Assembly (NCBI GenBank): GCA_026399475.1
Contig: JAPLQY010000071.1
Coordinates: 62,001-126,000 of the forward strand
Source of the DNA: Rhodocyclales bacterium
GTDB lineage: Bacteria > Pseudomonadota > Gammaproteobacteria > Burkholderiales > Rhodocyclaceae
DNA length: 64,000 nucleotides
Direction of reading: 5' to 3'
In this document: piece after piece, positions 14,046-57,091 of the stretch
Layout of the letters: every line of letters begins with the position of its first letter
Position numbering within the stretch: the first letter of the stretch is position 1
The notes under the pieces: generated by a model
What the model was told of the DNA's origin: nothing
Databases searched by the model: none
Seen by the model: the letters and a program-made list of their open reading frames with translations, nothing else
Position numbers and translations under genes: made by a program

Positions 14046-16814
14046 ATGAGCATGCAGGCAGTCGAACCCAAGTCCGTAAAGCACGTTCCGACCTATTGCT
14101 ACAACTGCGTTTCCGGCCCCGATTTCATGACCGTCAAGGTGGTGGATGGGGTGGCGACGGAGGTCGAACCCAATTTTGCGGCGGAGAAAATTCATCCGGC
14201 CAAGGGCAAGGTTTGCGTCAAGGCCTACGGTCTGGTGCAGAAAACCTACAACCCCAACCGCATTCTGTCGCCGATGAAGCGGACCAATCCGAAGAAGGGG
14301 CGCGACGAGGATCCGGGGTTTGTGCCCATCTCGTGGGACGAGGCGCTGGATCTGGTTGCCGAGAAACTCAAGGCTACGCGCGCCAAGGGTGTGCTGGACG
14401 AGTCCGGAGTCCCTCGCCTGGCCGCCTCGTTCGGTCATGGCGGCACGCCGGCCATGTACATGGGTACCTTCCCGGCCTTTCTTTCGGCCTGGGGGCCGAT
14501 CGACTACAGCTTCGGCTCGGGACAGGGCGTCAAGTGCGTGCATTCTGAACACCTCTATGGCGAGTTCTGGCACCGCGCCTTTACCGTTGCGGCGGATACA
14601 CCCTCGGCACGCTATCTGATTTCGCTGGGCGCGAATGTAGAGTCCTCCGGCGGGCCCTGTGCCGTGACGCGGCACGCCGAAGCGCGCATGCGCGGTTACA
14701 AGCGCGTTCAGGTCGAGCCTCATCTGTCAGTCACCGGAGCCTGTTCGGCCGAGTGGGTGCCGATTCGGCCGAAGACCGATCCGGCCTTCCTGTTCGCCCT
14801 GATCCATGTGTTGCTGATCGAACACAAACCGGATGAACTGGATGTGCCTTTCCTGCGCGACCGGACCTCGTCACCCTATCTGGTCGGACCGGATGGCCTT
14901 TATCTGCGCGATGCGGCGAGCAGGAAGCCGCTGCTCTGGGATACGGTGCTGGGCAAGGCCGTTCCCTTCGATACCGCCGGCGCCGTGCCGGCCCTGTCAG
15001 GAAAATTCCTGGTCAGCGGGGCGGTCAGCGTCGACGCCGATGAAGAAGTGCGGGAGATGGGCAGTGTCGAGGGAGTGACCGCCTTCACCAAGCTGGTCGA
15101 GCACATCGAGAAGTATTCGCCGGAATGGGCGGCAGGGATATGCGACGTTCCGGCTGCGACCATTCGCCGCATAGCCAATGAGTACCTGCAAGCCGCAAGC
15201 ATAGGCGAGACCACGGTGATCGACGGCGTCACGCTGCCTTTGCGGCCGGTCGCGGTGATTCTCGGCAAGTCGGTCAACAACGGCTGGGGCGCCTTCGAAT
15301 GCTGCTGGGCGCGTACCTTGCTGGCGGTGCTGGTCGGCGCGCTGGAGAATCCTGGCGGCACCCTGGGCACCACGGTGCGTCTGAATCGCCCGCATGACAA
15401 CCGCCACAAGAGCGTCCTGCCGGGTGAAGACGGTTTCATGGCACAGAAGTTCAATGCCACGGACAAGGCCAACTGGGCTGTCAAGCCGACCGGTCGCAAC
15501 ATGCACAAGACGTTGGTGCCCATCGTCGGCAATACCGCCTGGAGCCAGGCCTTGGGCCCCACCCAACTGGCCTGGATGTTCCAGCGCGAACAGCCTGCCG
15601 GTTCGGACATGCCGCAGCCGACTCTGCCCGATATCTGGATCATCTATCGCACCAACCCGGCGATTTCCTTCTGGGAAACCCAGACGCTGGTCAAGACCAT
15701 CGCCACCTTCCCGTTTACTGTTGCGTTTGCCTACACGGTCGACGAGACCAACTACATGGCCGACCTGCTGTTGCCGGAAGCCACCGATCTCGAATCGGTG
15801 CAGATGATTCGCGTCGGCGGCACCAAGTTCATGGAACAGTTCTGGGATCACAAGGGTGTGGCCTTGCGTCAGCCGGCGGTGGCGGCGCAGGGCGATACGC
15901 GCGACTTCACCTGGATTACCAACCAATTGGCGAAGCGCACCGGTCTGCTGGAGCAGTACAACGACGCGATCAATCGCGGCGCCGCCGGCGTATCCCCGCT
16001 GAAGGGTGCGAACTACGATTTCAGCCTCGACCCGAAGGGCGAGCATGCACCCGAGGTTGTCTGGGATGCGGTGTGTCGCGCGGCAACTACCGTGCTGTCC
16101 GAGGGCAGGGAAACCCTCGATCTATCCTGGTTCAAGGAGCACGGCTTCTACACGGTGCCCATGTCGCGACTCGAGTGGTATCTGAGTCCGACCATGGAAA
16201 AGCAGGGCCTGCGCTACGAACTGCCCTATCAGGAGCGCCTGCTGCGCGTCGGCCGGGAACTCAGGAATCGCCTGCACGAGAACAAGATGGCCTGGTGGGA
16301 TGAGCAACTTTCCGAATATGCCGCACTGCCGGAATGGCACGATGTGCCGGGACGCTGGGATGCGGCGCTGGTGAATGCCGGGGCGAAAGTGGAAGACTTC
16401 CCGCTCTGGCTGCTGGCCAGCAAGAGCATGCAGTACCACGCCGGCGGCAACGTCGGCATCGAATTGATGAGGGAGGTGTCGCTGAATATCCGCGGTCATG
16501 GCGGCGTCATCATGAACGCGAAGACGGCCGCGCGCTATGGCATCGCCGACGGCGATCGCATCGAAGTCCGTTCGCATATCGGGGCAACCTATGGCGCTGC
16601 GGTCCTGGCGCAAGGGATTCGCCCGGACACGCTGGTGATTCTCGGGCAGTTCGACCATTGGGCCCAGCCCTTTGCCAAGGATCTGGACATGCCCAGCCTG
16701 AATACGATCGCACCGATGTCGCTCGAGTTGACCGATGCCACCGGCTCCGGCTCCGATATCGTCAAGGTTCAGGTGCGCAAGATGGAAGGAACTATGGAAG
16801 GAGCACCGGCATGA
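14046..16814 (+). CDS. padB: Phenylacetyl-CoA:acceptor oxidoreductase, molybdopterin subunit PadB
   Basis: Catalytic subunit of the membrane-bound enzyme that oxidises phenylacetyl-CoA at the alpha carbon to phenylglyoxylate in denitrifying aromatic degraders. It has 922 aa of DMSO-reductase superfamily type: an N-terminal Fe-S motif (Cys18, Cys21, Cys57), molybdopterin domains (AYTVDETNYMADLLLPEATDLES) and a C-terminal dinucleotide-binding domain (NAKTAARYGIADGDRIEV). The third cysteine of the usual CxxCxxxC is absent (Pro25/Asp26 there), so one cluster ligand may not be cysteine. No Tat signal is visible. It is followed by padC and padD. Assignment rests on the cluster context with padEFGHIJ. 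Confidence 0.85.
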   Translation: MSMQAVEPKSVKHVPTYCYNCVSGPDFMTVKVVDGVATEVEPNFAAEKIHPAKGKVCVKAYGLVQKTYNPNRILSPMKRTNPKKGRDEDPGFVPISWDEALDLVAEKLKATRAKGVLDESGVPRLAASFGHGGTPAMYMGTFPAFLSAWGPIDYSFGSGQGVKCVHSEHLYGEFWHRAFTVAADTPSARYLISLGANVESSGGPCAVTRHAEARMRGYKRVQVEPHLSVTGACSAEWVPIRPKTDPAFLFALIHVLLIEHKPDELDVPFLRDRTSSPYLVGPDGLYLRDAASRKPLLWDTVLGKAVPFDTAGAVPALSGKFLVSGAVSVDADEEVREMGSVEGVTAFTKLVEHIEKYSPEWAAGICDVPAATIRRIANEYLQAASIGETTVIDGVTLPLRPVAVILGKSVNNGWGAFECCWARTLLAVLVGALENPGGTLGTTVRLNRPHDNRHKSVLPGEDGFMAQKFNATDKANWAVKPTGRNMHKTLVPIVGNTAWSQALGPTQLAWMFQREQPAGSDMPQPTLPDIWIIYRTNPAISFWETQTLVKTIATFPFTVAFAYTVDETNYMADLLLPEATDLESVQMIRVGGTKFMEQFWDHKGVALRQPAVAAQGDTRDFTWITNQLAKRTGLLEQYNDAINRGAAGVSPLKGANYDFSLDPKGEHAPEVVWDAVCRAATTVLSEGRETLDLSWFKEHGFYTVPMSRLEWYLSPTMEKQGLRYELPYQERLLRVGRELRNRLHENKMAWWDEQLSEYAALPEWHDVPGRWDAALVNAGAKVEDFPLWLLASKSMQYHAGGNVGIELMREVSLNIRGHGGVIMNAKTAARYGIADGDRIEVRSHIGATYGAAVLAQGIRPDTLVILGQFDHWAQPFAKDLDMPSLNTIAPMSLELTDATGSGSDIVKVQVRKMEGTMEGAPA

Positions 16815-16926
16815 GCAGCGGAGGGGGACCCGTGAGCGTAGCGAGCGGGGGCGTAGCGGCCGCGAAAGCCGCCGGTCGCCGACAGGATGGTCGTCGAACT
16901 GGGTGCATAGATTCGGAGGCGACGGT
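16815..16926. repeat. GC-rich inserted spacer between padB and padC
   Basis: The neighbouring pad genes overlap or nearly touch, but padB and padC are separated by 112 bp of GC-rich sequence with the motif GAGCGTAGCGAGCGGGGGCG and a GGCGGC/GCCGCC hairpin. It looks like an inserted repeat element of the type seen elsewhere in the window, though it is not a clear copy of family A. An open frame through it (ATG 16811 to 16930) lacks coding character. Confidence 0.5.
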
Positions 16927-17574
16927 ATGACGCGCTATGTGACCACCATCGACCTGCGTCGCTGCGTCGGCTGCCAGACCTGCACCGCGGCCTGCAAGCA
17001 CGCCAATGCGACACCGCCTGGAATCCAGTGGCGACGCGTGCTCGACCTGGAAACCGGCGAGTTTCCCGACGTGCGCCGGACCTTTCTGCCCATGGCCTGC
17101 ATGCATTGCGGCAATCCTCCCTGCGAAGAAGTGTGCCCGACCAAGGCGACCACCAAGCGCGCCGATGGTCTGGTGGCGATCGACTATGATCTTTGCATCG
17201 GCTGCGCCAACTGCGTGATGGCCTGCCCCTATGACGCCCGCTCGATCGTGCATGCCTCGACTTTCTCCTATGGCGATCAGCCGCTGCCGTCGGAGGCCAT
17301 ACGCTTCGATCCGGCGCGAATCGCGGTGTCGATGAAGTGCACATTCTGCGTCGATCGGATCGATGAAGCCGCGGTCACCGGGCGCACGCCCGGTGTGCAT
17401 CCCGAGGTGACGCCGGCCTGCGTCAATTCCTGCATTTCGGGTGCCATGGAATTCGGCGACATCGACGATCCCGGAAGCAATGTCAGCCGGTTGCTGGGAC
17501 AAACCCAACATTTCCGCATGCACGAGGAACTCGGAACCGAGCCGGGTGTGTATTACATATGGGACCAGCCATGA
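16927..17574 (+). CDS. padC: Phenylacetyl-CoA:acceptor oxidoreductase, Fe-S subunit PadC
   Basis: Polyferredoxin electron-transfer subunit of DmsB/NrfC type. It has 215 aa with four cysteine clusters: CVGCQTCTAACK, CMHCGNPPCEEVCPT, CIGCANCVMACP and CTFCVDR with a later CVNSC, giving about four [4Fe-4S] clusters. It carries electrons from PadB to the membrane anchor PadD. The ATG at 16927 begins MTRYVTTIDLRRCVGC. It overlaps padD by 4 nt. Confidence 0.88.
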   Translation: MTRYVTTIDLRRCVGCQTCTAACKHANATPPGIQWRRVLDLETGEFPDVRRTFLPMACMHCGNPPCEEVCPTKATTKRADGLVAIDYDLCIGCANCVMACPYDARSIVHASTFSYGDQPLPSEAIRFDPARIAVSMKCTFCVDRIDEAAVTGRTPGVHPEVTPACVNSCISGAMEFGDIDDPGSNVSRLLGQTQHFRMHEELGTEPGVYYIWDQP

Positions 17575-18491
17575 AGAAGCCGGCCAAAAGAACATCCGAC
17601 CTGGTGTCACCGCGACAGCAGCGCAATTGGGATTGGCGCGCGGCGGCGAATTTCATCGCAGGCGGCGCCGGTGGCGGTCTGTTGCTGTTCGCGTCAGTTG
17701 TCAGTCTTGAGCCGGATGCCGCCCGGACAGCGGTCCTGCTCGCCCTGATCCTGATAGCCAGCGGACTCACCTGCGTCTGGTTCGAGATCGGCCGGCCGTG
17801 GCGCGCCTTGAACGTCTATCGACATTTCTCGACCTCATGGATGACGCGCGAAGCGGTCGTCGCCCTGGTGCTGTTCGCCGCAGGCGGCTTGGCGTTTCTG
17901 TCCCTGCGGCCGGTGTTTGTCATCCTGGCCGGCATTCTGGGTCTGGCCTTCCTCTATAGTCAGGCGCGAATACTGGCGGCCAACAAGGGAATCCCGACGT
18001 GGCGGCATCCACGCAGTGTTACTCTGATGATCGCCACCGGCCTCGCGGAAGGCGCCGGATTCCTGGTCTGCGTGCTGTCGCTCTCGTCCGCGGTGATAGG
18101 CTTCTGGACCCTGGCCGGATTGATCGTGCTGATTGTCGTTCGGGCGCTGGTGTGGAAAATGTATCTCGGGAAACTGGTTGCCGATGGCGCCCCCGAGGGG
18201 GCTTTGAAGGTGCTGCGAGGAATCGACGCCAGGCTAGTGATCTTCGGCCACTTCTTGCCGGCACTTGCTGTTACGGCCGTGCTGGCAGGAATGCCGGGAC
18301 GGGCGGGTCTGCTGTTTGTGGCCGGGATCATGGTGGTTGCCGGCGGCTGGTTCCTGAAGTACACCTTGGTGAGACGCGCCGCATTCACGCAGGGACTCGC
18401 TCTGTTGCACCTGCCTGTGCGCGGATGCGGAATCGCGGGAGCGGCTGCAAAGCCGGGCTGGCGGGGTATACCCGGAGTAAAAGCAGGATAG
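17571..18491 (+). CDS. padD: Phenylacetyl-CoA:acceptor oxidoreductase, membrane anchor PadD
   Basis: Integral membrane subunit of the DmsC/NrfD type that passes electrons to the quinone pool. It has 306 aa with about eight hydrophobic segments, for example AVLLALILIASGLTCVWF and FVILAGILGLAFLY. The ATG at 17571 overlaps the padC stop (ATGA); an in-frame ATG 12 nt upstream is possible. With PadB and PadC it makes a three-subunit membrane complex. The 61-bp gap to padE contains a GGAGGAGA ribosome site. Confidence 0.83.
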   Translation: MKKPAKRTSDLVSPRQQRNWDWRAAANFIAGGAGGGLLLFASVVSLEPDAARTAVLLALILIASGLTCVWFEIGRPWRALNVYRHFSTSWMTREAVVALVLFAAGGLAFLSLRPVFVILAGILGLAFLYSQARILAANKGIPTWRHPRSVTLMIATGLAEGAGFLVCVLSLSSAVIGFWTLAGLIVLIVVRALVWKMYLGKLVADGAPEGALKVLRGIDARLVIFGHFLPALAVTAVLAGMPGRAGLLFVAGIMVVAGGWFLKYTLVRRAAFTQGLALLHLPVRGCGIAGAAAKPGWRGIPGVKAG

Positions 18492-18552
18492 TTGGTTTCA
18501 GGGGAATATACGAGATGGGGCCAAAGAGCCACATCAAACTGGAGGAGACAGG

Positions 18553-19125
18553 ATGTACGAAGTGCGCTTTCATGGCCGTGGCGGTCAGGGTGCCGTTACG
18601 GCGGCAGCGATGCTCGCGGCGGCGCTGCTTGAAGAAGGCAAATACGCGGTGTCGATTCCGTCCTTCGGCTTCGAACGACGCGGTGCGCCCGTGGTCTCCT
18701 TCCTGCGCTGCAGTGATCGCGAGATCCGCCAACTGACCAACATCTATACGCCCGATTGCCTGATCTGCGTCGACCCGACGCTGGCGAAGTCGGTCGATAT
18801 CTTCAGCGGTCTGAAGCCAGGCGGCACACTGGTGCAGGCCACGAACAAGCCGCTCGAAGAGGTCGTGATAGCCAATACGGTCGGGGTGGTTGGCCTGTGC
18901 GACGCCATCGCCATCGCGCTCGAGATTTTCAAGCGCCCGATCACCAATACGCTGATGCTCGGCGCTTTCGCGCGGACTACCGGAATCGTCTCGCTGGACG
19001 CCTTGAGGCGTTCGCTGGAAGACTCCGACTTTCGCGACGCCGGTCTCGCCCAGAATCTCGTCGCGCTGGAACGCGGTTACAACGAGACAACGGTGCATAC
19101 CATCGAGCGGAGGGTTGCGGCATGA
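18553..19125 (+). CDS. padE: Phenylglyoxylate:acceptor oxidoreductase, gamma-domain subunit PadE
   Basis: Subunit of the TPP-dependent 2-oxoacid oxidoreductase that decarboxylates phenylglyoxylate to benzoyl-CoA. It has 190 aa and matches the gamma domain of pyruvate ferredoxin oxidoreductases: the glycine-rich FHGRGGQGAVTAAAML and SFGFERRGAPVVSF motifs. It overlaps padF by 4 nt. The split into five polypeptides with a flavoprotein is the arrangement known from Azoarcus phenylglyoxylate dehydrogenase. Confidence 0.88.
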   Translation: MYEVRFHGRGGQGAVTAAAMLAAALLEEGKYAVSIPSFGFERRGAPVVSFLRCSDREIRQLTNIYTPDCLICVDPTLAKSVDIFSGLKPGGTLVQATNKPLEEVVIANTVGVVGLCDAIAIALEIFKRPITNTLMLGAFARTTGIVSLDALRRSLEDSDFRDAGLAQNLVALERGYNETTVHTIERRVAA

Positions 19126-19421
19126 GCAGGCATGACAGCTATCCGCTGTTCAATCTGAAACAAGCGAATGTGCCCGATGATCTGTGTCCGGTCGCTACCG
19201 AGGTCAGCCCGATGCTGCCCGGTGACTGGCGCAGCATGCGGCCCGTGGTCGACCGCGATAAGTGCGTCAAGTGCGCCGTGTGCTGGCTGTATTGCCCGGT
19301 GCAGTGTGTCGAGGAAAAGCCGGCCTGGTTCGATTTCAACCTGAAGACTTGCAAGGGCTGCGGCATTTGCGCCAACGAATGTCCGCAGCGCGCGATCACG
19401 ATGATCCCGGAGGCAACATGA
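19122..19421 (+). CDS. padF: Phenylglyoxylate:acceptor oxidoreductase, ferredoxin subunit PadF
   Basis: Delta-type subunit of 99 aa with two [4Fe-4S] motifs, CVKCAVCWLYCPVQC and CKGCGICANECPQRA. It passes electrons within the 2-oxoacid oxidoreductase complex. Both ends overlap its neighbours by 4 nt (padE stop, padG start), indicating coupled translation and fixed stoichiometry. Confidence 0.9.
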   Translation: MSRHDSYPLFNLKQANVPDDLCPVATEVSPMLPGDWRSMRPVVDRDKCVKCAVCWLYCPVQCVEEKPAWFDFNLKTCKGCGICANECPQRAITMIPEAT

Positions 19422-20677
19422 CTACCGCCACCCTTGAAACGCCGAGCCAGGCCAAGCGCGCCAAACAGAAGGTCATGCTCATCGAAGGCAACGAGGCCGC
19501 CGCGCTAGGTGTTGCGCTGGCGCGTCCCGACATGGTGGCGGTATATCCGATCACGCCGCAGTCCTCGCTGGTCGAGCACGTCGCCAAGCTGATCGCCGAT
19601 GGCCGCATGGACGCCGACATCGTCGATGCCGAAGGCGAGCATTCGGTGCTCTCGGTGCTGCAGGGCGCCGCGCTGGCCGGCGGGCGGACCTATACCGCGA
19701 CCTGCGGTCCCGGCCTGGCGTTCATGTTCGAGCCCTATTTCCGCACCTCCGGCATGCGCCCGCCGATCGTCATGTCGATCGTGACCCGCGATGGCATCAC
19801 GCCGCAATCGGTCTGGGGCGGGCACCAGGATGCGATGACGGTACGCGAAGTCGGCTGGGTGCAGGTGTATTGCGAGACCGTGCAGGAAGTGCTCGACACC
19901 ACGATCATGGCCTTCAAGATCGCCGAGCACCATGACGTCATGCTGCCGGTCAATGTTTGTCTCGACGGCAACTATTTGTCCTACGGCACTTCCCGCGTCG
20001 AACTGCCCGACCAGGCAGAAGTCGATGCCTTCATGGGCGTCAAGAACGTCAACTGGCACGTAGCGCTGGACCCATTGCGGCCGATGGCCGTCGATCCGCT
20101 GACCGGCGGCTCGGGTGGCAAGGGCCCGTCGACTTTCGTCCGCTATCGCAAGGGGCAGTGCCGCGGCATGCAAAACTCGCTGCGGGTCATCGAGGAGGTG
20201 CACGAGGAATGGGCGCAGCGCTTCGGTCGTCGTTTCGCGCCGCTGGTCGAGGAGTATCGCCTTGACGGCGCCGACTACGCGATCATGACCCTGGGCAGCA
20301 TGACCGGCGCGGCCAAGGATGCAATCGACGAAGCGCGCGACGCCGGCAAGCGGGTCGGGCTGATCAAGCTCAAGACCTTCAGCCCATTCCCGGTCGAGGC
20401 GCTGCTCAAGTCGATGAAGAAGATTCAGGCGCTCGGCGTGGTCGACCGCTCGGTCGGCTTCCGCTGGAACTGCGGGCCGATGTATCAGGAGACCATGGGT
20501 GCCCTGTATCGCCTCGGCGGCGCATCGGGGTCATTTCTGCCGTCGATGAGTTTCATCGGCGGTTTGGCCGGCGCCGACATCACGGTCGGGCATTTTCATC
20601 GCGTCATCGAAGCGACCGAAAAGCTGCTGAGCAGTCCCGCACCGACCGAGCCGATTTGGCTCAACGAGCGCGACTAG
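19418..20677 (+). CDS. padG: Phenylglyoxylate:acceptor oxidoreductase, alpha subunit PadG
   Basis: Alpha subunit (419 aa) of the 2-oxoacid oxidoreductase complex. It shows the domain I motif VAVYPITPQSSLVEHV, the GEHSVLSVLQGAALAGGRTYTAT stretch (given here as one recognisable region near residues 75-100), and a C-terminal transketolase-like domain with KTFSPFPVEAL. It binds 2-oxoacid and CoA together with the TPP-bearing PadI. The ATG at 19418 overlaps the padF stop. Confidence 0.9.
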   Translation: MTTATLETPSQAKRAKQKVMLIEGNEAAALGVALARPDMVAVYPITPQSSLVEHVAKLIADGRMDADIVDAEGEHSVLSVLQGAALAGGRTYTATCGPGLAFMFEPYFRTSGMRPPIVMSIVTRDGITPQSVWGGHQDAMTVREVGWVQVYCETVQEVLDTTIMAFKIAEHHDVMLPVNVCLDGNYLSYGTSRVELPDQAEVDAFMGVKNVNWHVALDPLRPMAVDPLTGGSGGKGPSTFVRYRKGQCRGMQNSLRVIEEVHEEWAQRFGRRFAPLVEEYRLDGADYAIMTLGSMTGAAKDAIDEARDAGKRVGLIKLKTFSPFPVEALLKSMKKIQALGVVDRSVGFRWNCGPMYQETMGALYRLGGASGSFLPSMSFIGGLAGADITVGHFHRVIEATEKLLSSPAPTEPIWLNERD

Positions 20678-20685
20678 GGGAAGCC

Positions 20686-21939
20686 ATGGAACACACAAAA
20701 TACCTTGTGGTCGGCAGCAGCCACGCCGCACTCGAAGCGGTGACCGCGATCCGCATGCATGATCCGGAGGGCAGTCTGACGCTGCTGACCCGCGATCCGC
20801 ACCTGCCTTACTCGCCAACGGTACTGCCCTACGTTGTTTCCGGGCGCTCGGCGCCCGACGGCATCTTCCTGCGCGACGAAAAGTTTTTCGCCGACAACTG
20901 CGTCCAGTTGAAGCGCGGCACGGCGCTCAAGGCCCTGCATGCCGGGCGCAATGCGGCCGAACTCGCCGACGGCAGCGAAATCGCCTACGAGAAAGTTCTG
21001 CTCGCCACTGGCGCCGCACCTGCCATCCCGCCGATTCCCGGCATCGATACGGTGTCGTATCACGTGCTGCGCACGCTCGACGATGCGACCAAGTTGCACG
21101 CTGCAATCAAGCAATCGAAGCAGGCGGTGGTGATGGGAGCGGGGCTGGTAGGAATGCACGCAGCGGAGAATCTGGTCAAGGCCGGTGCCTCGGTCACCAT
21201 CGTGGAAATGGCCGGGCAACTGACCGATGGCTACTTCGATGCAACCGCCGCGCAACTGATCGAAAAGGCCTTCACCGACAACGGTGCGAGGATCCTGACC
21301 GGCAGTCGGGTCATCAAACTGGCGCCATCGGCTATCGGGGCCACTTTGACCCTGGAAAATGGCAACACTCTGGAAGCCGATCTGCTCCTGGTTGCCACCG
21401 GCGTCAAGCCGAATATGGACTTCCTGGCGGATGAGGGTGTCGAGCATGACTGGGGCATCCTGGTCAGTGACACCATGCAGACCAGCGTCGCCAATGTCTG
21501 GGCGGCAGGCGATTGCGCCCAAGCCAAGGGCTTTTTCACCGACGCCAGGGTGATGAACGCGATCCTGCCCGATGCGACCGAGCAGGGGCGTATCGCCGGC
21601 ATGGCCATGGCGGGCGATCCGGGACTGAAGAAATATCCCGGCGGGGTGCCGCTGAACACCTATCACTTCTTCGGCCGTCATGCGATTTCGGTCGGATCGA
21701 GCCGTGTGCCTGAAGGCGCCGAGGTGGTCACGCGCTTCGACGAAACCAGCGGTCGCTACCTGAAGGTGATTTTCAAGGATGGCTGTCTGCTCGGCATCTA
21801 CGGCGTCAATGAGTTCTTCGACGGCGGGGTCATGTGTCAGTTGATCCTGCGCCGCGTCGACCTCACGGCAGTCAAGGATCGCTTCGTCGCCAATCCGCTC
21901 GCGGTCGGCCGCGAGCTGATGTCGAAGTTGTGGAGGTAA
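20686..21939 (+). CDS. padH: Phenylglyoxylate:acceptor oxidoreductase, NAD(H)-linked flavoprotein subunit PadH
   Basis: It has 417 aa and is a pyridine-nucleotide disulfide oxidoreductase-type FAD protein. An N-terminal FAD-binding region (VVGSSHAALEAVTAI) is followed by an NAD-binding region (VVMGAGLVGMHAAENLV) and the FAD motif VWAAGDCAQA. In the Azoarcus enzyme this subunit lets the complex reduce NAD+ with electrons from phenylglyoxylate. The start at 20686 follows a GGGGAAG ribosome site. Confidence 0.87.
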   Translation: MEHTKYLVVGSSHAALEAVTAIRMHDPEGSLTLLTRDPHLPYSPTVLPYVVSGRSAPDGIFLRDEKFFADNCVQLKRGTALKALHAGRNAAELADGSEIAYEKVLLATGAAPAIPPIPGIDTVSYHVLRTLDDATKLHAAIKQSKQAVVMGAGLVGMHAAENLVKAGASVTIVEMAGQLTDGYFDATAAQLIEKAFTDNGARILTGSRVIKLAPSAIGATLTLENGNTLEADLLLVATGVKPNMDFLADEGVEHDWGILVSDTMQTSVANVWAAGDCAQAKGFFTDARVMNAILPDATEQGRIAGMAMAGDPGLKKYPGGVPLNTYHFFGRHAISVGSSRVPEGAEVVTRFDETSGRYLKVIFKDGCLLGIYGVNEFFDGGVMCQLILRRVDLTAVKDRFVANPLAVGRELMSKLWR

Positions 21940-21941
21940 GC

Positions 21942-23285
21942 ATGGGACACGCGTACAACACCATCGCCTTCGATGCCGCCAAGTGCGACGGCTGCGGCGA
22001 CTGCATGACCGCCTGCGCCACGGCCAAGACCGGCACCATCGACCAGACCCGGTCGCGCATCCAGATCGTGGGCGCGGCGGAGGGCGGCTTCGAACTCGCC
22101 TTGTGCCGCCAGTGCGGCGATCCCAAGTGCGTCACGGTCTGCCCGGCGGCGGCGCTGACCAAGAATGGCGACAACGGGGTCATCGAATGGAACGCCGCGA
22201 AATGCGTCGATTGCCTGCTGTGCACTGTCGGTTGCGCCTATGCCGGCATCGCCCTCGATGCCGGTACCGGGCATGTTGCCAAGTGCGACATGTGCGATGG
22301 TGCCCCGTCCTGCGTACCGGTCTGTCCGCACGATGCACTGACCTACATCACCACCTCGCGCATCTACAACGAAGTCGGCGACTGGGAAGATCTCTTTGCG
22401 CCCGGTCTGGCAGGTTGCCAGGGCTGCAATACCGAACTCCTGATGCGCCACACCTTGCGCCGGGTGGGGCCGGATACCGTACTGGCAACCCCGCCGGGTT
22501 GCGTGCCTGGCATGGGTTCGGTCGGCTTCAACGGCACTACCGGCACCAAGATTCCGGTCTTTCATCCTCTGCTGACCAACACCGCGGCCATGCTGGCCGG
22601 CGTCAAGCGTCAGTACAAGCGGGTCGGGCGCGATGTCACGGCGCTGGCGATTGCCGGCGACGGCGGCGCCTCGGATGTGGGCTTTCAGTCATTGTCCGGC
22701 GCGGCCGAACGCAACGAGCAGATACTTTTCATGGTGGTCGATAACGAAGGCTACATGAACACCGGCATGCAGCGTTCGAGTTGCACGCCCTATGGGGCAT
22801 GGACCTCGACCACGCCGATCGGCAAGGGCTCGGGCGGCATGCCCTCGCAGGGCAAGACGCAGGACGCCAAGAACCTGCCGCTGATCATGGTCAACCATCG
22901 CTGCGAGTATGTAGCCACGGCATCCACCGCCTACATGGAGGATCTCTACGACAAGCTCGACAAGGCGATCCAGGCCTCCAAGCGCGGCTTTGCCTACCTG
23001 CACGTGTATTCACCGTGCACCACGGGCTGGCGCTTTCCGACCGACCAGAACATGGAAGTCGCGCGCAAGGCGGTGGAAACCAACTTCGTGATGCTCTGGG
23101 AGTACAACCCGAAGGATGGCCTGCATTTCACCCGGCCGATCGATGATCCGCTGCCGGTCACCGATTACCTCAAGGCCATGGGGCGCTTCCGCCACCTGAG
23201 TCCCGATCAGATTTCACACATTCAGTCCAAGGTCGTGGAAAATCTCGCCTTCGTCAAACAGATGACTCATCGAGCAAGCGCATAG
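21942..23285 (+). CDS. padI: Phenylglyoxylate:acceptor oxidoreductase, TPP-binding beta subunit with ferredoxin domain PadI
   Basis: It has 447 aa. Residues 1-150 are polyferredoxin-like, with cysteine clusters CDGCGDCMTAC, CRQCGDPKCVTVC, CVDCLLCTVGC and CDMCDGAPSCVPVC. The rest is a TPP-binding beta domain with GDGGASDVGFQSL followed by VVDNEGYMNTGMQ. It carries the cofactor that attacks the 2-oxoacid. The start is 2 nt after padH, and it leads to padJ 9 bp later. Confidence 0.9.
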   Translation: MGHAYNTIAFDAAKCDGCGDCMTACATAKTGTIDQTRSRIQIVGAAEGGFELALCRQCGDPKCVTVCPAAALTKNGDNGVIEWNAAKCVDCLLCTVGCAYAGIALDAGTGHVAKCDMCDGAPSCVPVCPHDALTYITTSRIYNEVGDWEDLFAPGLAGCQGCNTELLMRHTLRRVGPDTVLATPPGCVPGMGSVGFNGTTGTKIPVFHPLLTNTAAMLAGVKRQYKRVGRDVTALAIAGDGGASDVGFQSLSGAAERNEQILFMVVDNEGYMNTGMQRSSCTPYGAWTSTTPIGKGSGGMPSQGKTQDAKNLPLIMVNHRCEYVATASTAYMEDLYDKLDKAIQASKRGFAYLHVYSPCTTGWRFPTDQNMEVARKAVETNFVMLWEYNPKDGLHFTRPIDDPLPVTDYLKAMGRFRHLSPDQISHIQSKVVENLAFVKQMTHRASA

Positions 23286-23294
23286 GGGGAGTAA

Positions 23295-24614
23295 ATGAGC
23301 AAGCAGGATTTGCCGGGCAGCGGCCTGGAACCGATCGAAAAGGCAAGCCGGGATGAACTCCAGGCCTTGCAGCTGCGGCGCATGAAGTGGTCGCTGAAGC
23401 ACGCCTACGACAACGTGCCGCACTATCGGCAGAAGTACGATGCAGCGGGTGTGCACCCGGACGACCTCAAGCAACTGTCGGACCTCTCCAGGTTTCCCTT
23501 CACCACCAAGCTCGATTTGCGCGATACCTATCCTTACGGCATGTTTGCGACGCCGATGCGCGATGTGGTGCGGGTTCATGCTTCATCCGGCACGACGGGC
23601 AAGCCGACGGTGGTGGGCTATACCGCGAACGACATCGCGATGTGGGCGCAACTCATGGCCCGTTCGCTGCGCGCCGCAGGCTGCTCGGCCGACGACATCA
23701 TCCTCAACTCCTATGGCTACGGCCTGTTTACCGGTGGCCTCGGCGCCCACTACGGCGGTGAATGCCTGGGCGCCACCGTGATCCCGATGTCGGGCGGCCA
23801 GACCGAAAAGCAGGTGCAGCTGATCCAGGATTTCAAGCCGACGGTAATCCTGTCGACACCCTCATACGTGCTCACCATCGCCGATGAGATGATCAAGCAG
23901 GGACTGCAACCGAACGGGAGCAGTTTGCGTGTCGGTGTTTTTGGCGCCGAGCCATGGACCAACGAAATGCGCCGCGAGATCGAGGAGCGCCTGGGTATCG
24001 ACGCCATCGACATCTACGGCCTGTCCGAGGTCATGGGCCCCGGAGTGTCTTGCGAGTGCATCGAGACCAAGGATGGTCCGCACATCTGGGAAGACCACTT
24101 TTATCCGGAAATCATCAATCCGGAAACGGGCGAAGTGCTGCCGGACGGAGAGATGGGGGAACTCGTCTTCACTTCCCTCTCGAAAGAGGCCTTGCCGATC
24201 ATCCGCTATCGCACGCGCGACCTGACCCGGTTGCTGCCCGGAACGGCGCGCAGCATGCGGCGGATGGAGAAGATCACCGGTCGCAGCGATGACATGCTGA
24301 TCATCCGCGGAGTGAACGTTTTTCCGACGCAAATCGAAGAGATCCTGCTGAAGAACCCCAGCCTGTGCGCCCAGTACCAATTGCAGGTATCGCGCGAGGG
24401 GCACCTCGACCAGCTTGATGTCTACGTCGAGGTCCGCAGCGACCTCTCGGCATCGATCGGCGACGTGAAGCGCCGTGAAATTGGCGCTGACGTGAAGCAC
24501 CATATCAAGGCGCTGGTGGGAGTCACCGCCGACGTTCATGTCGTCGAAACCGACAAGGTCGAAAGAACCCTGATCGGCAAGGCCCGGCGCGTGATCGACC
24601 GGCGGCCGAAATAG
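23295..24614 (+). CDS. padJ: Phenylacetate-CoA ligase, anaerobic type
   Basis: AMP-forming ligase that activates phenylacetate to phenylacetyl-CoA, the PadBCD substrate. It has 439 aa, the standard PaaK-family length. The AMP-binding P-loop SSGTTGKPTVVGYT, the YGLSEVMGPGVS motif and the terminal lysine context KVERTLIGKARRVIDRR are present. The ATG at 23295 follows GGGGGAGTAA. It closes the pad operon and precedes an ABC importer that may bring in the acid. Confidence 0.92.
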   Translation: MSKQDLPGSGLEPIEKASRDELQALQLRRMKWSLKHAYDNVPHYRQKYDAAGVHPDDLKQLSDLSRFPFTTKLDLRDTYPYGMFATPMRDVVRVHASSGTTGKPTVVGYTANDIAMWAQLMARSLRAAGCSADDIILNSYGYGLFTGGLGAHYGGECLGATVIPMSGGQTEKQVQLIQDFKPTVILSTPSYVLTIADEMIKQGLQPNGSSLRVGVFGAEPWTNEMRREIEERLGIDAIDIYGLSEVMGPGVSCECIETKDGPHIWEDHFYPEIINPETGEVLPDGEMGELVFTSLSKEALPIIRYRTRDLTRLLPGTARSMRRMEKITGRSDDMLIIRGVNVFPTQIEEILLKNPSLCAQYQLQVSREGHLDQLDVYVEVRSDLSASIGDVKRREIGADVKHHIKALVGVTADVHVVETDKVERTLIGKARRVIDRRPK

Positions 24615-24731: not shown

Positions 24732-25607
24732 ATGCTGTCGCAGTTCCTTCAGTTCCTGTTTTCGGGCATCACGGTGGGGGCCACCTATGCCCTGGCGGCA
24801 CTGGGGTTCACGCTGATCTACAACGCCAGCAACGTGATCAACTTTGCCCAGGGCGAGTTCATCATGCTCGGCGGCATGCTGGCGTTCTTTTTCATGCAGT
24901 CCGGGCTGCCGATGCCGCTGGCCATTCTGCTGGCGATTGTCATTCCGGCGCTGGTCGGCGTTCTCCTCGACAAGCTGGCGATCGAACCGGCGCGCGATGC
25001 CGAGGTCGTGACGCTGATCATCATCACCATCGGCGCCTCGCTGGTGATTCGCGGCCTGATCCAGATCTGGCTCGGCAAGGGCGCGCACAGCTATCCCGCG
25101 TTTTCAGGCAGCGAACCGATTGAGATCGGCGGCGCCACACTGCTGCCGCAAAGTCTCTGGGTGCTTGGCATCACGGCTCTGGTGGTGGTTGCGCTTTGGT
25201 ACTTTTTCAGCCGCACGCTGGCCGGCAAAGCCATTCTCGCCACCTCGTGCAATCCGCTGGCGGCCCAACTCGTCGGCATCAACACGCAGTGGGTGCTGCT
25301 GGTCAGCTTTGCCCTGTCCGCGGCATTGGGAGCGATTGGCGGCGTGCTGCTGACTCCCATCACGCTGACTTCCTACGACGTCGGGATCATGCTCGGCCTC
25401 AAGGGCTTTGTCGCCGTCGTCGTCGGCGGCCTGGGCAGCGGCCTGGGTGCCGTGGTGGGCGGGCTGCTTGTCGGCATCATCGAGGCCATGGCGGCCGGCT
25501 ACATCTCATCGGCCTACAAGGATGCGATGCCCTTCATCCTCATCCTGTTCATTCTCTTCTTCATGCCGCGCGGCCTCTTTGGCGCACAGGTCACGGAGCG
25601 GGTATGA
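24732..25607 (+). CDS. HAAT-family ABC transporter permease, LivH type
   Basis: Inner-membrane permease (291 aa) of a branched-chain amino acid-type importer, many of which carry aromatic acids. It has about eight hydrophobic helices, with the family motifs GFTLIYNASNVINFAQGEF near the N-terminus and VVVGGLGSGLGAVVGGLLVG near the C-terminus. The ATG at 24732 follows AGGGAGGCTCC. It belongs with the permease, two ATPases and binding protein downstream; its place after padJ suggests phenylacetate or another aromatic acid as substrate. Confidence 0.88.
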   Translation: MLSQFLQFLFSGITVGATYALAALGFTLIYNASNVINFAQGEFIMLGGMLAFFFMQSGLPMPLAILLAIVIPALVGVLLDKLAIEPARDAEVVTLIIITIGASLVIRGLIQIWLGKGAHSYPAFSGSEPIEIGGATLLPQSLWVLGITALVVVALWYFFSRTLAGKAILATSCNPLAAQLVGINTQWVLLVSFALSAALGAIGGVLLTPITLTSYDVGIMLGLKGFVAVVVGGLGSGLGAVVGGLLVGIIEAMAAGYISSAYKDAMPFILILFILFFMPRGLFGAQVTERV

Positions 25608-25791: not shown

Positions 25792-26739
25792 ATGAGTGCG
25801 CTGAAGCGGCATTACGCGCTCATGGTTCTGGCCGGCGTGCTGCTGCTCCTGCCGCTGGTGCTGCCCAACAACTATTACTACGACATCGCCATACGCATGG
25901 CGATCAACGCGATCATCGTGCTTGGCTTGAATCTCCTGATCGGTTTTGCCGGCCAGATCAGTCTCGGCCACGCCGGATTCGTCGGCATTGGCGCCTATGC
26001 CTCGGCGATTCTGCCCACGCACTTCGGCTGGCACCCGCTATTCGCCATGGCCGCGGGCGCGGCAATTGCTAGCGCCATCGCCGCGATTGTCGCGCGGCCG
26101 ATCTTTCGCCTGAAAGGACACTATCTCGCCATGGCAACCCTCGGGCTGGGGATCATCATCGCCATTGTGATCAAGAACGAGGGGACCTACACCGGGGGGC
26201 CCGACGGCATGCCGGTTTCTGCACTCGGGCTGATGGGCTTCGAGATTTCAGGCGAAAAACAGTGGTACCGGGTGCTTGCCGTGACGCTGCTGTTCAGTTT
26301 CTGGGCGGCGAAGAACCTGATTGATTCTCCGTTCGGGCGCGCCCTGCGGGCACTCCATGGGTCCGAGGTCGCCTCGCAGGTGATGGGGGTTGATGTGGTT
26401 CGCTACAAGGTCGCCATCTTTGTCCTGTCCGCCTTCTTTGCCAGCCTGATGGGCAGCGTCACCGCGCACTACATCGGTTTCGTCACGCCCAATATCGCCG
26501 ATTTCTTCCATTCCATCGAGCTTGTCACCATGGTCGTGATCGGTGGCATGGCCTCGATTTACGGCTCGCTGATTGGCGCGGTCCTGCTGACCGCCTTGCC
26601 CCAGGCACTGTCGACTTTCGAGGGATGGGAGACGGTGGCCTTCGGCTCCATACTCATGCTTTCCATGATATTCATGCCAAAGGGATTGGTGCCCACGCTG
26701 GCGGCGCGCTTCGGCAGCCAAGACCTGGAAGACCGCTGA
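25792..26739 (+). CDS. HAAT-family ABC transporter permease, LivM type
   Basis: Second permease (315 aa) with the LivM signature GLNLLIGFAGQISLGHAGFVGIGAY (about residues 43-67, quoted partly as GFAGQISLGHAGF) and a C-terminal GGMASIYGSLIGAVLL. The ATG at 25792 begins MSALKRHYALMVLAG; a longer in-frame extension runs back through the repeat spacer and is not supported. Its stop overlaps the livG start. Confidence 0.87.
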   Translation: MSALKRHYALMVLAGVLLLLPLVLPNNYYYDIAIRMAINAIIVLGLNLLIGFAGQISLGHAGFVGIGAYASAILPTHFGWHPLFAMAAGAAIASAIAAIVARPIFRLKGHYLAMATLGLGIIIAIVIKNEGTYTGGPDGMPVSALGLMGFEISGEKQWYRVLAVTLLFSFWAAKNLIDSPFGRALRALHGSEVASQVMGVDVVRYKVAIFVLSAFFASLMGSVTAHYIGFVTPNIADFFHSIELVTMVVIGGMASIYGSLIGAVLLTALPQALSTFEGWETVAFGSILMLSMIFMPKGLVPTLAARFGSQDLEDR

Positions 26740-27500
26740 TGGCACTGCTCGAAGTCGATAATCTTTCCAAGGCCTTTGGCGGCGTCAAGGCCGTGCAGAA
26801 CGTCAGTTTTGCTGTCGATCGCGGCCTGGTGTATTCGGTGATCGGCCCGAACGGCGCCGGCAAGACCACACTGTTCAACCTGATCACCGGCGTCTATACG
26901 CCAACCGAGGGTGACATCCGGCTCGATGGCCAGTCCATTGCCGGCACCGCTCCGCATGATCTGGCCTCGAAAGGGATGGCCAGAACCTTCCAGAATCTGC
27001 AGGTCTGCATGAACATGACGGCGCTGGAAAACGTCATGGTCGGGGCGCATTTGCAGCTTGACCGCAACCTGGTCAAGGCCATGCTGCGTTTCCCCGGCAT
27101 CGCCAGGCGTGACCGCAAGCTGAAGGACGAAGCTCGTGAGCTGATGCGCTTTGTCGGCCTGGAGGGCTACTGGAACCTGGGCGCCAGCTCGATGCCTTAT
27201 GGAGCACTGAAGCGGCTGGAGATCGCCCGGGCGCTCGCCGCCAGGCCGCAGATCCTTTTCCTCGATGAACCGGCGGCCGGACTCAATTCAAAGGAAACCG
27301 CCGAGATCGATGAACTCGTGCGCAAGGTCGCCGACAACGGCGTCACGGTGGTACTGGTCGAGCACGACATGAAAATGGTGATGAACATTTCCGATCGCAT
27401 CCTGGTGCTCGATTACGGAAAGAAGCTGACCGAGGGCACGGCGCAGGAGGTCAGAGAGAATCCCGACGTGATCGCGGCATACCTGGGTAGCAACGTATGA
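26739..27500 (+). CDS. HAAT-family ABC transporter ATPase, LivG type
   Basis: ATP-binding subunit (253 aa). Walker A GPNGAGKTTLFNLITG (about residues 37-52), Walker B QILFLDEPAAGL and the H-loop EHDMKMVM are seen. The signature motif is degenerate (SSMPYGALKRLEIARAL rather than LSGGQ), as is usual for LivG. The start overlaps the livM stop by 1 nt. Confidence 0.88.
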   Translation: MALLEVDNLSKAFGGVKAVQNVSFAVDRGLVYSVIGPNGAGKTTLFNLITGVYTPTEGDIRLDGQSIAGTAPHDLASKGMARTFQNLQVCMNMTALENVMVGAHLQLDRNLVKAMLRFPGIARRDRKLKDEARELMRFVGLEGYWNLGASSMPYGALKRLEIARALAARPQILFLDEPAAGLNSKETAEIDELVRKVADNGVTVVLVEHDMKMVMNISDRILVLDYGKKLTEGTAQEVRENPDVIAAYLGSNV

Positions 27501-27510
27501 GGAAGCTTTC

Positions 27511-28827
27511 GTGAGCGAGGCGCTGCAGACCATCAGCAACGAGCATCGCAGCATGTGGCAGCTGACCGTGGTACTCGACGAGTTGCGCAAGCAGCTCGAC
27601 CAGACGGAGCAGAGGCCTGATGCGGAACTGTTCGACCTGATCCTGGATTACATCGAGCAGTACATCGAACGCGTGCACCAGCCGAAGGAGGAGGCCTACC
27701 TCTACCGGGCCGTGCTCGACAGGACCAGCGAAGGCAACGAGATGATCGCGCAGTTCGAGCGCGAGCATGCGGCCAGCCCCGAGATCGTGGCCACCCTGCG
27801 CCGTCAGGTGAAGCACCTGGTGCGCCACTATCCGGAAGGGAAGGGCGAGTTCCAGGAAGGGCTGGAGAAGTACATCGCGCTGCTGCGCAGCCACATCATG
27901 AGGGAGGAGAATGAACTCTTCCCGCTGGCGCGCAGGATCTTGACCGATGTCGACTGGGATGAGATCGACACCGCGTTCGCCAACAGCGGCGATCCGCAGT
28001 TCGGCTCAGAGTCTCGCGCAGAGTTCCGCGCCCTGATGTCGCGCATCGTCAACCAGGCGCCGGAGCCGGTGGGCTTTGGCATGGCGCGGGATGCGCAGCC
28101 GATCGCCGAAGCCCACCCGGTGCTGCTTTCGGTGCAGGATTTGAGCAGTCACTACGGGCGCATCCAGGCGCTGCGCGGCGTCACCATCGAAGTCAGGCAG
28201 GGGCAACTGGTGGCGCTGGTCGGCGCCAACGGCGCTGGCAAGACCACGCTGCTGCGGGCTATCTCCGGTGTGCAGAAGGTTTCCGGCGGCGCGGTTAATT
28301 TCGCCGGGCAGGACATAACGAATGCCCGTCCGGACCAGCGCGTGCGTCTCGGCATCTGCCAGGTACCCGAAGGGCGCCAGGTCTTCGGGCCTCTAACGGT
28401 GGAGGACAACCTCCGTCTCGGCGCCTACACTCGCAAGGACAAGATTGCGATAGCTGACGACCTGGAACAGATGTACGCCATGTTCCCGATCCTCAAGCAG
28501 AAATTCCGGCAGGCGGCAGGAACCCTGTCCGGCGGTCAGCAGCAGATGCTGGCAATGGCGCGGGCCCTCATGGGCAGGCCGAAACTGCTGTTGCTGGACG
28601 AGCCCTCGATGGGCCTGGCGCCGCTGCTTATCCAGGAGATTTTCAACGCCATCATCAGTCTGCGCGAGCATGGCAAGACCGTCTTCCTGGTCGAGCAGAA
28701 TGCCCAGGCGGCGCTATCCATTGCTGATCGTGCCTATGTGATCGAGACCGGAGAAACCGTCCTTTCGGGTACCGGCAGCGAGTTGCTGGGGAACGAACAG
28801 GTGAAGTCCGCTTACCTGGGTATCTGA
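27511..28827 (+). CDS. Hemerythrin-like domain fused to LivF-type ABC transporter ATPase
   Basis: It has 438 aa from a GTG start preceded by GAGGAAG. Residues 1-150 form a hemerythrin-like HHE helical bundle with the diiron ligand pattern His12, His56-x3-Glu60, His86 and His128-x3-Glu132 (HIMREENELFPLAR). After a linker (about 165-202) comes a complete LivF ATPase: Walker A GANGAGKTTLL (238-248), signature LSGGQQQM, Walker B LLLLDEPSMGLAP and H-loop EQNAQAAL. LivF proteins normally have about 235-240 aa and no such domain. An oxygen, NO or iron-redox sensor acting on uptake is an attractive inference. The frame is continuous with no stop between the domains, so it is not two genes. Confidence 0.88.
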   Translation: MSEALQTISNEHRSMWQLTVVLDELRKQLDQTEQRPDAELFDLILDYIEQYIERVHQPKEEAYLYRAVLDRTSEGNEMIAQFEREHAASPEIVATLRRQVKHLVRHYPEGKGEFQEGLEKYIALLRSHIMREENELFPLARRILTDVDWDEIDTAFANSGDPQFGSESRAEFRALMSRIVNQAPEPVGFGMARDAQPIAEAHPVLLSVQDLSSHYGRIQALRGVTIEVRQGQLVALVGANGAGKTTLLRAISGVQKVSGGAVNFAGQDITNARPDQRVRLGICQVPEGRQVFGPLTVEDNLRLGAYTRKDKIAIADDLEQMYAMFPILKQKFRQAAGTLSGGQQQMLAMARALMGRPKLLLLDEPSMGLAPLLIQEIFNAIISLREHGKTVFLVEQNAQAALSIADRAYVIETGETVLSGTGSELLGNEQVKSAYLGI

Positions 28828-28923: not shown

Positions 28924-30075
28924 GTGCTCAAACACACATTACTCAAGATCGTTACTGCCGCTGCGATCACAGTCGGCGCCAGCATCTCGGCGTTTGCTGC
29001 CGATCCGATCAAAATTGGCTCGGTGCTTTCAGTGACCGGCCCGGCCGCTTTCCTTGGCGACCCGGAACTGAAAACCCTGCAACTCTATATCGAGAGGATC
29101 AACAAGGAAGGCGGTGTGCTGGGACGCCAATTGCAGCTGGTGCATTACGACGATGGCAGCGATGCCGCCAAGGCCAATGGCTTTGCCAAGCGTTTGATCG
29201 ACGACGACAAGGTAGACATCATCGTCGGCGGCACCGTCACGGGCTCCACCATGTCCATGATCCCGCTGGTCGAGAAAGCGGAACTGCCCTTCATCTCGCT
29301 GGCCGGCGCAGTCGTCATCGTCGAGCCGGTCAAGAAGTGGGTGTTCAAGACGCCGCATACCGATCGCATGGCGGCCGAGAAGGTGTTCGACGACATGAAG
29401 AAGCGCAACCTGACCAAGGTTGCACTGTTCTCCGAGACCAGCGGTTTCGGCGCCTCGGGAAAAAAGGAAACCGAGGCCATGGCCGCCAAGATGGGCATCA
29501 CCCTGGTGGCCAATGAAACCTATGGACCCAAGGACACCGACATGACGCCGCAACTGACCAAGATCAAGAACACGGCCGGCGTGCAGGCCGTATTCGTCTT
29601 CGGTCTCGGCCAGGGTCCCGCCGTGGTCAACAAGAACTACAAGCAGCTCGGACTCACCCTGCCGCTGTACCACGCGCATGGCGTAGCCTCGGAAGAGTTC
29701 ATCAAGCTCTCAGGCCCCGCCGCAGAAGGCGTTCGCCTGCCGGCCGCTGCCTTGCTGGTGGCTGACAAGCTGGCGGCCAACGATCCGCAAAAGCCGGTGG
29801 CCACCGGCTACCGCAAAGCCTACAGTGATCGCTACAAGGAGGATGTCTCGACTTTCGGCGGTCACGCCTACGATGGCCTGATGATCGCAGTCGAGGCCTT
29901 CAAGCGTGCCGGTTCCACCGACAAGGCCAAGGTCCGCGATGCCATCGAGGCCACCAAGGGCTACATCGGCACCGGCGGCAAGGTCAATATGTCGGCAACG
30001 GATCACATGGGCCTGGATCAGTCGGCCTTCCGCATGCTGGAAATCAAGAACGGAGACTGGGCGCTGGCGAACTAA
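28924..30075 (+). CDS. HAAT-family ABC transporter periplasmic substrate-binding protein
   Basis: It has 383 aa from a GTG start after a strong AGGAGGAAA site. A Sec signal peptide is visible (positively charged start, hydrophobic AAAITVGASISAFA, cleavage after AFAA-like residues about 25). The mature part, beginning DPIKIGSVLSVTGPAAFLGD, is a type I periplasmic binding fold (Peripla_BP_6). It is the last gene of the transporter operon and ends before a strong terminator. Binding of phenylacetate or another aromatic acid is inferred from the neighbouring pad genes. Confidence 0.88.
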   Translation: MLKHTLLKIVTAAAITVGASISAFAADPIKIGSVLSVTGPAAFLGDPELKTLQLYIERINKEGGVLGRQLQLVHYDDGSDAAKANGFAKRLIDDDKVDIIVGGTVTGSTMSMIPLVEKAELPFISLAGAVVIVEPVKKWVFKTPHTDRMAAEKVFDDMKKRNLTKVALFSETSGFGASGKKETEAMAAKMGITLVANETYGPKDTDMTPQLTKIKNTAGVQAVFVFGLGQGPAVVNKNYKQLGLTLPLYHAHGVASEEFIKLSGPAAEGVRLPAAALLVADKLAANDPQKPVATGYRKAYSDRYKEDVSTFGGHAYDGLMIAVEAFKRAGSTDKAKVRDAIEATKGYIGTGGKVNMSATDHMGLDQSAFRMLEIKNGDWALAN

Positions 30076-56220: not shown

Positions 56221-57087
56221 ATGGATTTCGCTTTTTTCCTGATTCAATTGCTCAACGGCCTGCAATACGGCCTGTTGCTGTTCCTGGTCGCCAGCGGCCT
56301 GACGCTGGTATTCGGCATCATGGGCATCATCAATCTGGCCCACGGCAGCTTCTACATGGTGGGAGCCTATCTCGCCTGGTCGCTGTCCAGCATGACCGGA
56401 AGCCTGACCGCAGCGATCCTGCTGGCGATCCCCTTGACGGTGATCCTCGGCATGGCGCTGGAACGCCTGCTGTTCCGCCATCTGTATCAGCGCGACCACC
56501 TCTACCAGGTGCTGCTGACCTACGGCCTGATCCTGGTGTTCGAAGAACTGCGCAGCCTGATCTGGGGTGACGACGTGCATGGCGTTGCCGTGCCGGCCCT
56601 GCTCAATGCCTCGATACCGCTGACCGACAACCTGTCCTATCCGGTCTATCGGCTCGCCATCTCGGGAGTTTGCCTGTTGCTGGCAGCGGCCCTTTATTTC
56701 CTGATCCAGAAGACCCGCATCGGCATGATGATTCGCGCGGGGGCCAGCAATCGCGACATGGTCCAGTCGCTCGGTATCGACATCAAGCTGATCTACACGC
56801 TGGTATTCGCCCTGGGTATCGCGCTGGCGGCCTTTGCCGGCATGATCAATGCGCCGCTGTCCTCGGTGTTTCCCAACATGGGCGGCCAGGTGCTGATCGT
56901 CTGCTTCGTGGTCGTCGTCATCGGTGGCATCGGTTCCGTCAAGGGTGCCATGGCGGCCTCGCTGATGATCGGACTGGCCGAGACCTTGGGCCAGGTGCTG
57001 GTGCCGGAAGTGGCGGGCATGATTGTCTATGTGCTGATGGCCATCGTGCTCGTGTGGCGGCCGGAAGGCCTCTTTGGGCGGGCCTGA
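56221..57087 (+). CDS. HAAT-family ABC transporter permease, LivH type (second importer)
   Basis: Permease of 288 aa with about eight membrane segments; motifs GLTLVFGIMGIINLAHGSFYMVGAY (about residues 29-53, outlined) and VVVIGGIGSVKGAMAASLMIG. The ATG at 56221 lies after the terminator, and the ribosome site is poor. It works with the following permease and two ATPases. Confidence 0.88.
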   Translation: MDFAFFLIQLLNGLQYGLLLFLVASGLTLVFGIMGIINLAHGSFYMVGAYLAWSLSSMTGSLTAAILLAIPLTVILGMALERLLFRHLYQRDHLYQVLLTYGLILVFEELRSLIWGDDVHGVAVPALLNASIPLTDNLSYPVYRLAISGVCLLLAAALYFLIQKTRIGMMIRAGASNRDMVQSLGIDIKLIYTLVFALGIALAAFAGMINAPLSSVFPNMGGQVLIVCFVVVVIGGIGSVKGAMAASLMIGLAETLGQVLVPEVAGMIVYVLMAIVLVWRPEGLFGRA

Positions 57088-57091
57088 GCGC

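Follow-up and report, generated by a model that had tools for sequence, protein, structure and literature searches.

Why should a hemerythrin-like (HHE) domain be joined to the ATPase of an ATP-binding cassette (ABC) importer? The question is raised by a single gene, called HHE-LivF here, in a 64,000-nucleotide stretch of a Rhodocyclales bacterium genome (contig JAPLQY010000071.1, positions 62,001 to 126,000; the window), where padJ is followed by genes in the order livHMG-[HHE-livF]-livK. Its product is best explained, from sequence, as the ATPase subunit of an importer for phenylacetate-type aromatic acids that carries a whole N-terminal HHE protein with a diiron site of YtfE/RIC type, and the chances are about even that this diiron module tunes the importer to O2, NO or the redox state.

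The 438-residue frame (27511-28827, forward strand) has a GTG start 10 bases 3' of the livG stop and is free of internal stops according to the open reading frame (ORF) list and its translation. Its N-terminal part belongs to the HHE family, Pfam Hemerythrin (PF01814) matching residues 21-140 at 52.6 bits against a gathering cut-off of 25.3, which was also passed by 6/6 other HHE proteins scanned, either fused or liv-adjacent. The remainder is an ABC ATPase, with an ABC_tran match at residues 221-366 (110 bits) and intact GANGAGKTT, LSGGQQQ and LLLDEP motifs, which we take to be Walker A, signature and Walker B respectively. The initial annotation was therefore right to read both domains in one frame. 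Its "complete LivF ATPase" holds as far as a complete, LivF-like ABC ATPase is concerned: NF008626 (LivF) is the top-scoring NCBIfam family for this part at 271.7 bits, below its equivalog cut-off of 441, and by this measure the domain is LivF-like and not an E. coli-type LivF equivalog. The nearest solved chain is 1ji0 from Thermotoga maritima (E 9.7e-79), and identity to the other LivF-like paralogues of the same genome is at most 50%.

Between the two domains, the first ~45 residues of the stretch 146-202 can be aligned with free-standing HHE proteins, which argues that a whole HHE gene was fused, and the structural model of the HHE part places helices at 146-157 and 166-182 of this stretch. 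The HHE domain itself is predicted to form a four-helix bundle. Foldseek searches with this model gave 3cax as the best row (E 0.02), followed by FBXL5 and YtfE at E ~1.8; YtfE was absent among the 50 VIA rows listed, an absence that excludes nothing.

The same architecture was found at 54 loci, window included, belonging to 51 genomes of eight families and to a plasmid of Azospirillum lipoferum 4B, the copy of which is 47% identical; two further rows, L022 (a duplicate of L069) and L051 (truncated at a contig end), were left out of this number and of the count of invariant positions given below. A search of 200 relatives with the HHE part returned fused copies that are 67-82% identical within the genus and 37-57% identical in other genera, several of the nearest carriers being, by contig name, Sulfuritalea or Rhodocyclales metagenome-assembled genomes. 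In a wider search with a 14-row profile of fusions (E <= 1e-100, own genome counted in every tally), whole-fusion matches were obtained in 34/297 genomes of the family (11 genera), 10/399 of the order (five of these in four other families), 4/369 of the class and 4/398 of the phylum. The possibility that a sequencing or assembly error merged two genes is ruled out, practically beyond doubt, by the 54 fused loci, which include the single-contig G071, G333 and G420. Both this concern and that of absence from close relatives, raised in the initial annotation, are thus removed, the second by the copies of the same genus. Genomes G020 and G1046 contain two HHE-LivF copies each.

The ligands in the window protein are H12, H56, E60, H86, H128 and E132, exactly as had been named (H12, H56/E60, H86, H128/E132), and E133 is invariant as well. 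In 22 distinct full-length fusions, 20 of the 145 residues of the HHE part are invariant (M1 is counted as such because the script sets it), and these 20 include all six ligands, for which a hypergeometric calculation that ignores relatedness gives a chance of ~3e-6. The six are kept in 51/54 fusions, though HHE identity to the window drops to 28%, and in 57/57 standalone HHE proteins, a conservation which argues that the metal site matters. YtfE was the best sequence-profile match to the HHE part among solved structures, with five of the six ligands aligned, and the combination of four His and two Glu diiron ligands in these 51 fusions is that of YtfE/RIC. At position 90, that of the fifth His in canonical O2-binding hemerythrins (motif taken from the accessible part of PMC9388753), the window has P90, and Pro is found in 48/54 fusions and His in 3/54. 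Judged from these residues, the site is YtfE/RIC-like rather than of the reversible O2 carrier type, so that the "full set of diiron ligands" proposed initially stands for a YtfE/RIC-type site and fails for a canonical O2-binding hemerythrin. YtfE has a ScdA-type domain, whereas no N-terminal ScdA domain was found among the Pfam matches of HHE-LivF at E <= 0.001, and here an ABC ATPase is attached.

Concerning the origin of the fusion, a single branch of the HHE tree (75 rows) parts the 54 fused from 21 standalone sequences with support of 100/99 and in 200/200 bootstraps, and the same split was recovered with 21 fused and 57 standalone sequences (99/98); L030 (the fused G091 copy, a duplicate of L075) and six duplicate rows had been removed from the standalone set beforehand. 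This topology fits a single fusion origin. In the LivF tree, unfused LivFs are nested in fused clades at three well-supported places, namely G896 (L203, in a pad operon), G226 (L143) and G1006/G877 (L201, L202), and, given a one-time joining of HHE, these can be read as losses; taken alone, the LivF tree needs eight gains or losses of HHE, at least four of them forced. Since unfused LivFs are nested in this way, one of them in a pad operon, the HHE domain appears to be accessory and the importer able to work without it. A LivF-specific speed-up after HHE loss, considered on the basis of branch lengths, was dropped, as the divergence is much the same for LivH, LivM and LivG of the L201, L202 and L203 operons. 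LivF residue 379 (window 28645-28647), the top row of an all-position LivF scan which partly tracks phylogeny, is Asn in 50/54 fused and 1/18 unfused proteins, while among the loss lineages it is Ala in L201/L202 and L203 and still Asn in L143; as a lead only, it could be an HHE contact or reflect phylogeny alone.

Additional evidence comes from free-standing HHE genes: about 120 standalone rows were counted by hand, and the surroundings of 54 of them, for the most part those with higher scores, were read. At nine of these 54 loci the HHE gene lies 33-208 bases 3' of livF on the same strand, behind different kinds of livF, at one it follows livM, and at six boxA is found at a distance of 0.05-1.75 kb, the stretches read around these six being free of liv matches. 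Paa clusters of paaABCDE-like type in which HHE follows livKHMGF are among the nine livF-adjacent loci. At five of the nine the HHE gene extends a cluster made up of livKHM(G) and a gene for a PaaE-like reductase (25-27% identity); a PaaA-like ORF was found in four of the five stretches, thiolase-like and TetR-like ORFs in four and a PaaK match in two, names beyond the blast labels having been assigned by reading the sequences. Mapped on the HHE tree, adjacency to liv genes requires four gains or losses, of which at least two are forced by branches with good support. As related standalone HHE genes sit behind other livF genes or near boxA, the link between HHE and importer recurs. A binomial value of 3.6e-13, which assumes ~14 livF per 4000 genes and independent loci, is not relied on.

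One such pair is found in the same genome as the window (G000:C61, L076:9995-10561), where, inside a gentisate/3-hydroxybenzoate operon that has a livKHMGF set to itself, a separate HHE gene lies ~33 bases 3' of livF. The same gene order occurs on an Azospirillum oryzae plasmid (L081), in which the gene is annotated as "hemerythrin domain-containing protein", and the nearest tree kin of the gentisate-type HHEs is L263, with a neighbourhood that looks like meta-cleavage by ORF reading (L277). Searching 190 genomes of the order with the gentisate-type HHE gave eight genomes at E <= 1e-40, own genome included, the others being 41-46% identical; the short flanks of these other matches yielded a single weak match of LivG type (L230) and none to livF. 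This pairing has been seen in the own genome and on the A. oryzae plasmid and is not shown to be common. Another standalone HHE gene of the own genome (L077) adjoins a UspA-like gene, with further neighbours which we read as cbb3 oxidase and FNR-type genes, and on the Azoarcus sp. KH32C plasmid (NC_020548.1, 665500-666525; L083) a protein annotated as universal stress protein matches HHE in its second part.

Aromatic-pathway markers were present inside the fetched stretch at 41/54 fused loci: pad genes at nine, aerobic paa genes (PaaN, PaaE, PaaH or PaaZ) at 20, PRK08132 hydroxylase and/or metallo-hydrolase at 11 (four of them also with paa), and phenylacetate-CoA ligase or box genes alone at five. 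Some stretches of the 13 loci with no marker are short and leave little room for neighbours, and others extend over 12-21 kb. A BcrC-type benzoyl-CoA reductase was found in 15/51 fused and 3/18 unfused genomes (window's enzyme as query, threshold 1e-60, by which other reductase types may be missed) and PaaA in 23/51 and 8/18 respectively, comparisons that are phylogenetically confounded and reveal no clear difference. The tie to the anaerobic phenylacetate pathway suggested initially thus fails, fused loci lying beside aerobic paa more often than beside pad, and a fusion tied to anaerobic growth only is ruled out by the same BcrC and PaaA counts. From these marker counts, the importer accompanies phenylacetate-type catabolism by either the aerobic or the anaerobic route. 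Phenylacetate is the most likely substrate in the window, given the adjoining ligase and pathway genes and the frequent presence of PaaK, paa or pad at orthologous loci. At one fused locus (L075:4387-5523, genome G091) a 378-residue protein encoded between paaN and a paaE-like reductase gene gave a weak AurF match (19.6 bits, below the cut-off of 29.6); no PaaA passed the search in this genome and the product is possibly an alternative oxygenase.

Partners that occur as a fusion in certain genomes and side by side in others usually point to a functional link, and with the fusion here and gene pairs elsewhere such a link between HHE and LivF is the simplest reading. The diiron site would respond to O2, NO or cell redox by a change of state and, being tied to one of the two ATPases, would alter ATP hydrolysis or assembly, whereby uptake could be matched to whether the pathway can run, that is to PadBCD oxidation without O2 or to a ring oxygenase with O2. 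The fuller version, in which the diiron centre senses O2, NO or redox and sets the ATP hydrolysis itself, so that uptake itself and not only expression follows the electron acceptor, in trans where HHE lies behind livF, is held tentatively, at somewhat less than even chances. Control of ABC importers is generally ascribed to expression, to the substrate or to partner proteins; through a conserved diiron domain in the ATPase, O2, NO or redox would act on aromatic acid uptake directly and post-translationally, in bacteria that may alternate between oxygen and other electron acceptors. The gating proposed in the initial annotation is in part borne out: a functional-looking diiron domain on the importer ATPase of a phenylacetate cluster makes gas or redox gating plausible and HHE-liv pairs are repeated, while the ligands are of YtfE/RIC and not of reversible O2-carrier type and the anaerobic tie did not hold.

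Several observations weigh against control of the importer by the diiron domain. The fifth His of reversible O2 binders is missing from the site. Three loci of one gammaproteobacterial genus (L140-L142) retain the domain despite E60T and H86Y, accounting for the 3/54 fusions in which H86 is absent; these three genomes have His at position 90, their loci adjoin aerobic PaaZ, and they constitute a natural test of the need for the metal site. Eighteen related LivFs in the set examined carry no fused HHE; judging from the trees, at least three lineages seem to have dropped HHE while retaining the importer. An aromatic marker is present at 14/18 unfused orthologous loci, about as often as at fused ones, which argues that the pathway can do without HHE and that HHE singles none out. 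Among the standalone genes, 38/54 have no directly adjoining liv or box gene (L078, L246 and L256, with a more distant liv-like match, are counted here), which suggests that the HHE family has other jobs too. Finally, no contact between HHE and ATPase is visible in the full-length AlphaFold2 (AF2) model, the quality of which is too poor for this (mean predicted local distance difference test, pLDDT, of 60); the model was set aside, its Foldseek matches being mostly ABC ATPases.

The HHE domain may alternatively be a tethered scavenger or oxygen store, removing O2, NO or peroxide, or holding O2, at the membrane with no regulation of the ATPase, so that PadBCD/Bcr enzymes are protected or ring oxygenases served where the substrate enters. 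We regard this as unlikely, even though the boxA-near genes with no liv match would agree with it, a YtfE-like site would suit reaction with NO or O2, and the accessible text of PMC6449761 already proposes such a role for the HHE gene of benzoate clusters; a single diiron site per importer subunit would presumably be a poor sink, and neither the fusion to the ATPase nor the placement behind livF in other operons is explained. An iron-related, RIC-like role, in which HHE repairs or supplies iron centres (such as those of Fe-S pad enzymes or diiron oxygenases) or signals the iron status and owes its fusion to co-expression or location, is rather improbable, as Pfam reports no ScdA-type domain and it is hard to see why repair should be linked to importers of gentisate or catechol pathways. 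Slightly less probable still is a role in structure or solubility, the helical bundle stabilising or dimerising LivF and its metal being no longer important; this would accommodate the genus with two altered ligands (3/54 loci) and the tolerated losses of HHE, and is opposed by the retention of six ligands in nearly all fused and every standalone protein despite their divergence.

HHE genes that stand alone in benzoate clusters have been described before, in a study whose authors we take to be Suvorova and Gelfand, and what is added here is the HHE-LivF fusion, of which no report was found in the open-licence literature searched, in agreement with the initial remark that no such system was known. 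In the accessible text of that study, COG3945 HHE genes belong to benzoate clusters (BoxR, BenR and AphS regulons) of Rhodocyclales, some with a benzoate ABC transporter, and an oxygen store or scavenger is suggested, their function being otherwise left open (PMC6449761). They resemble the present case in being encoded with aromatic catabolism and its ABC importer, but as separate genes, fusion to LivF being unmentioned in the accessible text of PMC6449761. Hemerythrin is not mentioned in that of PMC9765128. The fusion, together with the gene pairs behind livF, points to the importer as the partner of the HHE genes whose presence in operons for benzoate and phenylacetate had been noticed without an explanation.

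The nearest precedent is that of P1B-5 transport ATPases, in which a cytoplasmic hemerythrin-like domain is fused to the transporter protein that hydrolyses ATP and its role, in O2/redox or iron sensing, is left open in the accessible part of PMC9388753. These are P-type metal transporters with the motif H-HxxxE-HxE-HxxxxD, in contrast with the ABC organic-acid importer described here, its N-terminal HHE and its H-HxxxE-H-HxxxE motif. The sensors DcrH, Bhr-DGC and Bhr-HD-GYP likewise join an HHE-type regulatory input to an output domain, but according to the same partial source they have the canonical O2-binding motif and signalling outputs instead of a six-ligand site and a transporter output. 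The LivF of LivFGHMK (hydrophobic amino acid uptake transporter, HAAT) importers shares the ATPase domain, but ordinary LivF has no N-terminal domain.

Features of the HHE-LivF gene and its operon in the window (aa, amino acids)
Feature	Position	Strand	Basis
pad genes (padBCD, padE-I)	14046..23285	+	ORFs, Fe-S domains of padC, order matching related loci
padJ, phenylacetate-CoA ligase	23295..24614	+	TIGR02155, 709.2 bits (cut-off 646.3)
LivH-type permease	24732..25607	+	ORF; same order in related loci
LivM-type permease	25792..26739	+	ORF, related loci; start inferred from orthologue length
LivG-type ATPase	26739..27500	+	PRK11300 LivG, 285 bits (below cut-off 362)
HHE (hemerythrin-like) domain, aa 1-145	27511..27945	+	Pfam PF01814, conservation, predicted helical bundle
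C-terminal helices of HHE unit and linker, aa 146-202	27946..28116	+	fused/standalone HHE alignment, model
LivF-type ABC ATPase, aa 203-438	28117..28827	+	Pfam, NCBIfam, alignment, 1ji0
LivK-type periplasmic substrate-binding protein	28924..30075	+	Pfam Peripla_BP_6, 216 bits

The names padBCD and padE-I are presumed from sequence and gene order, and those of the LivH and LivM permeases from context. A second livMGF set is located at 57074-59667 of the window, with an alpha/beta-hydrolase-like ORF (named by reading) and not HHE behind its livF; in other genomes (L275-L277) LivFs of this type, 57-69% identical, are directly followed by HHE.
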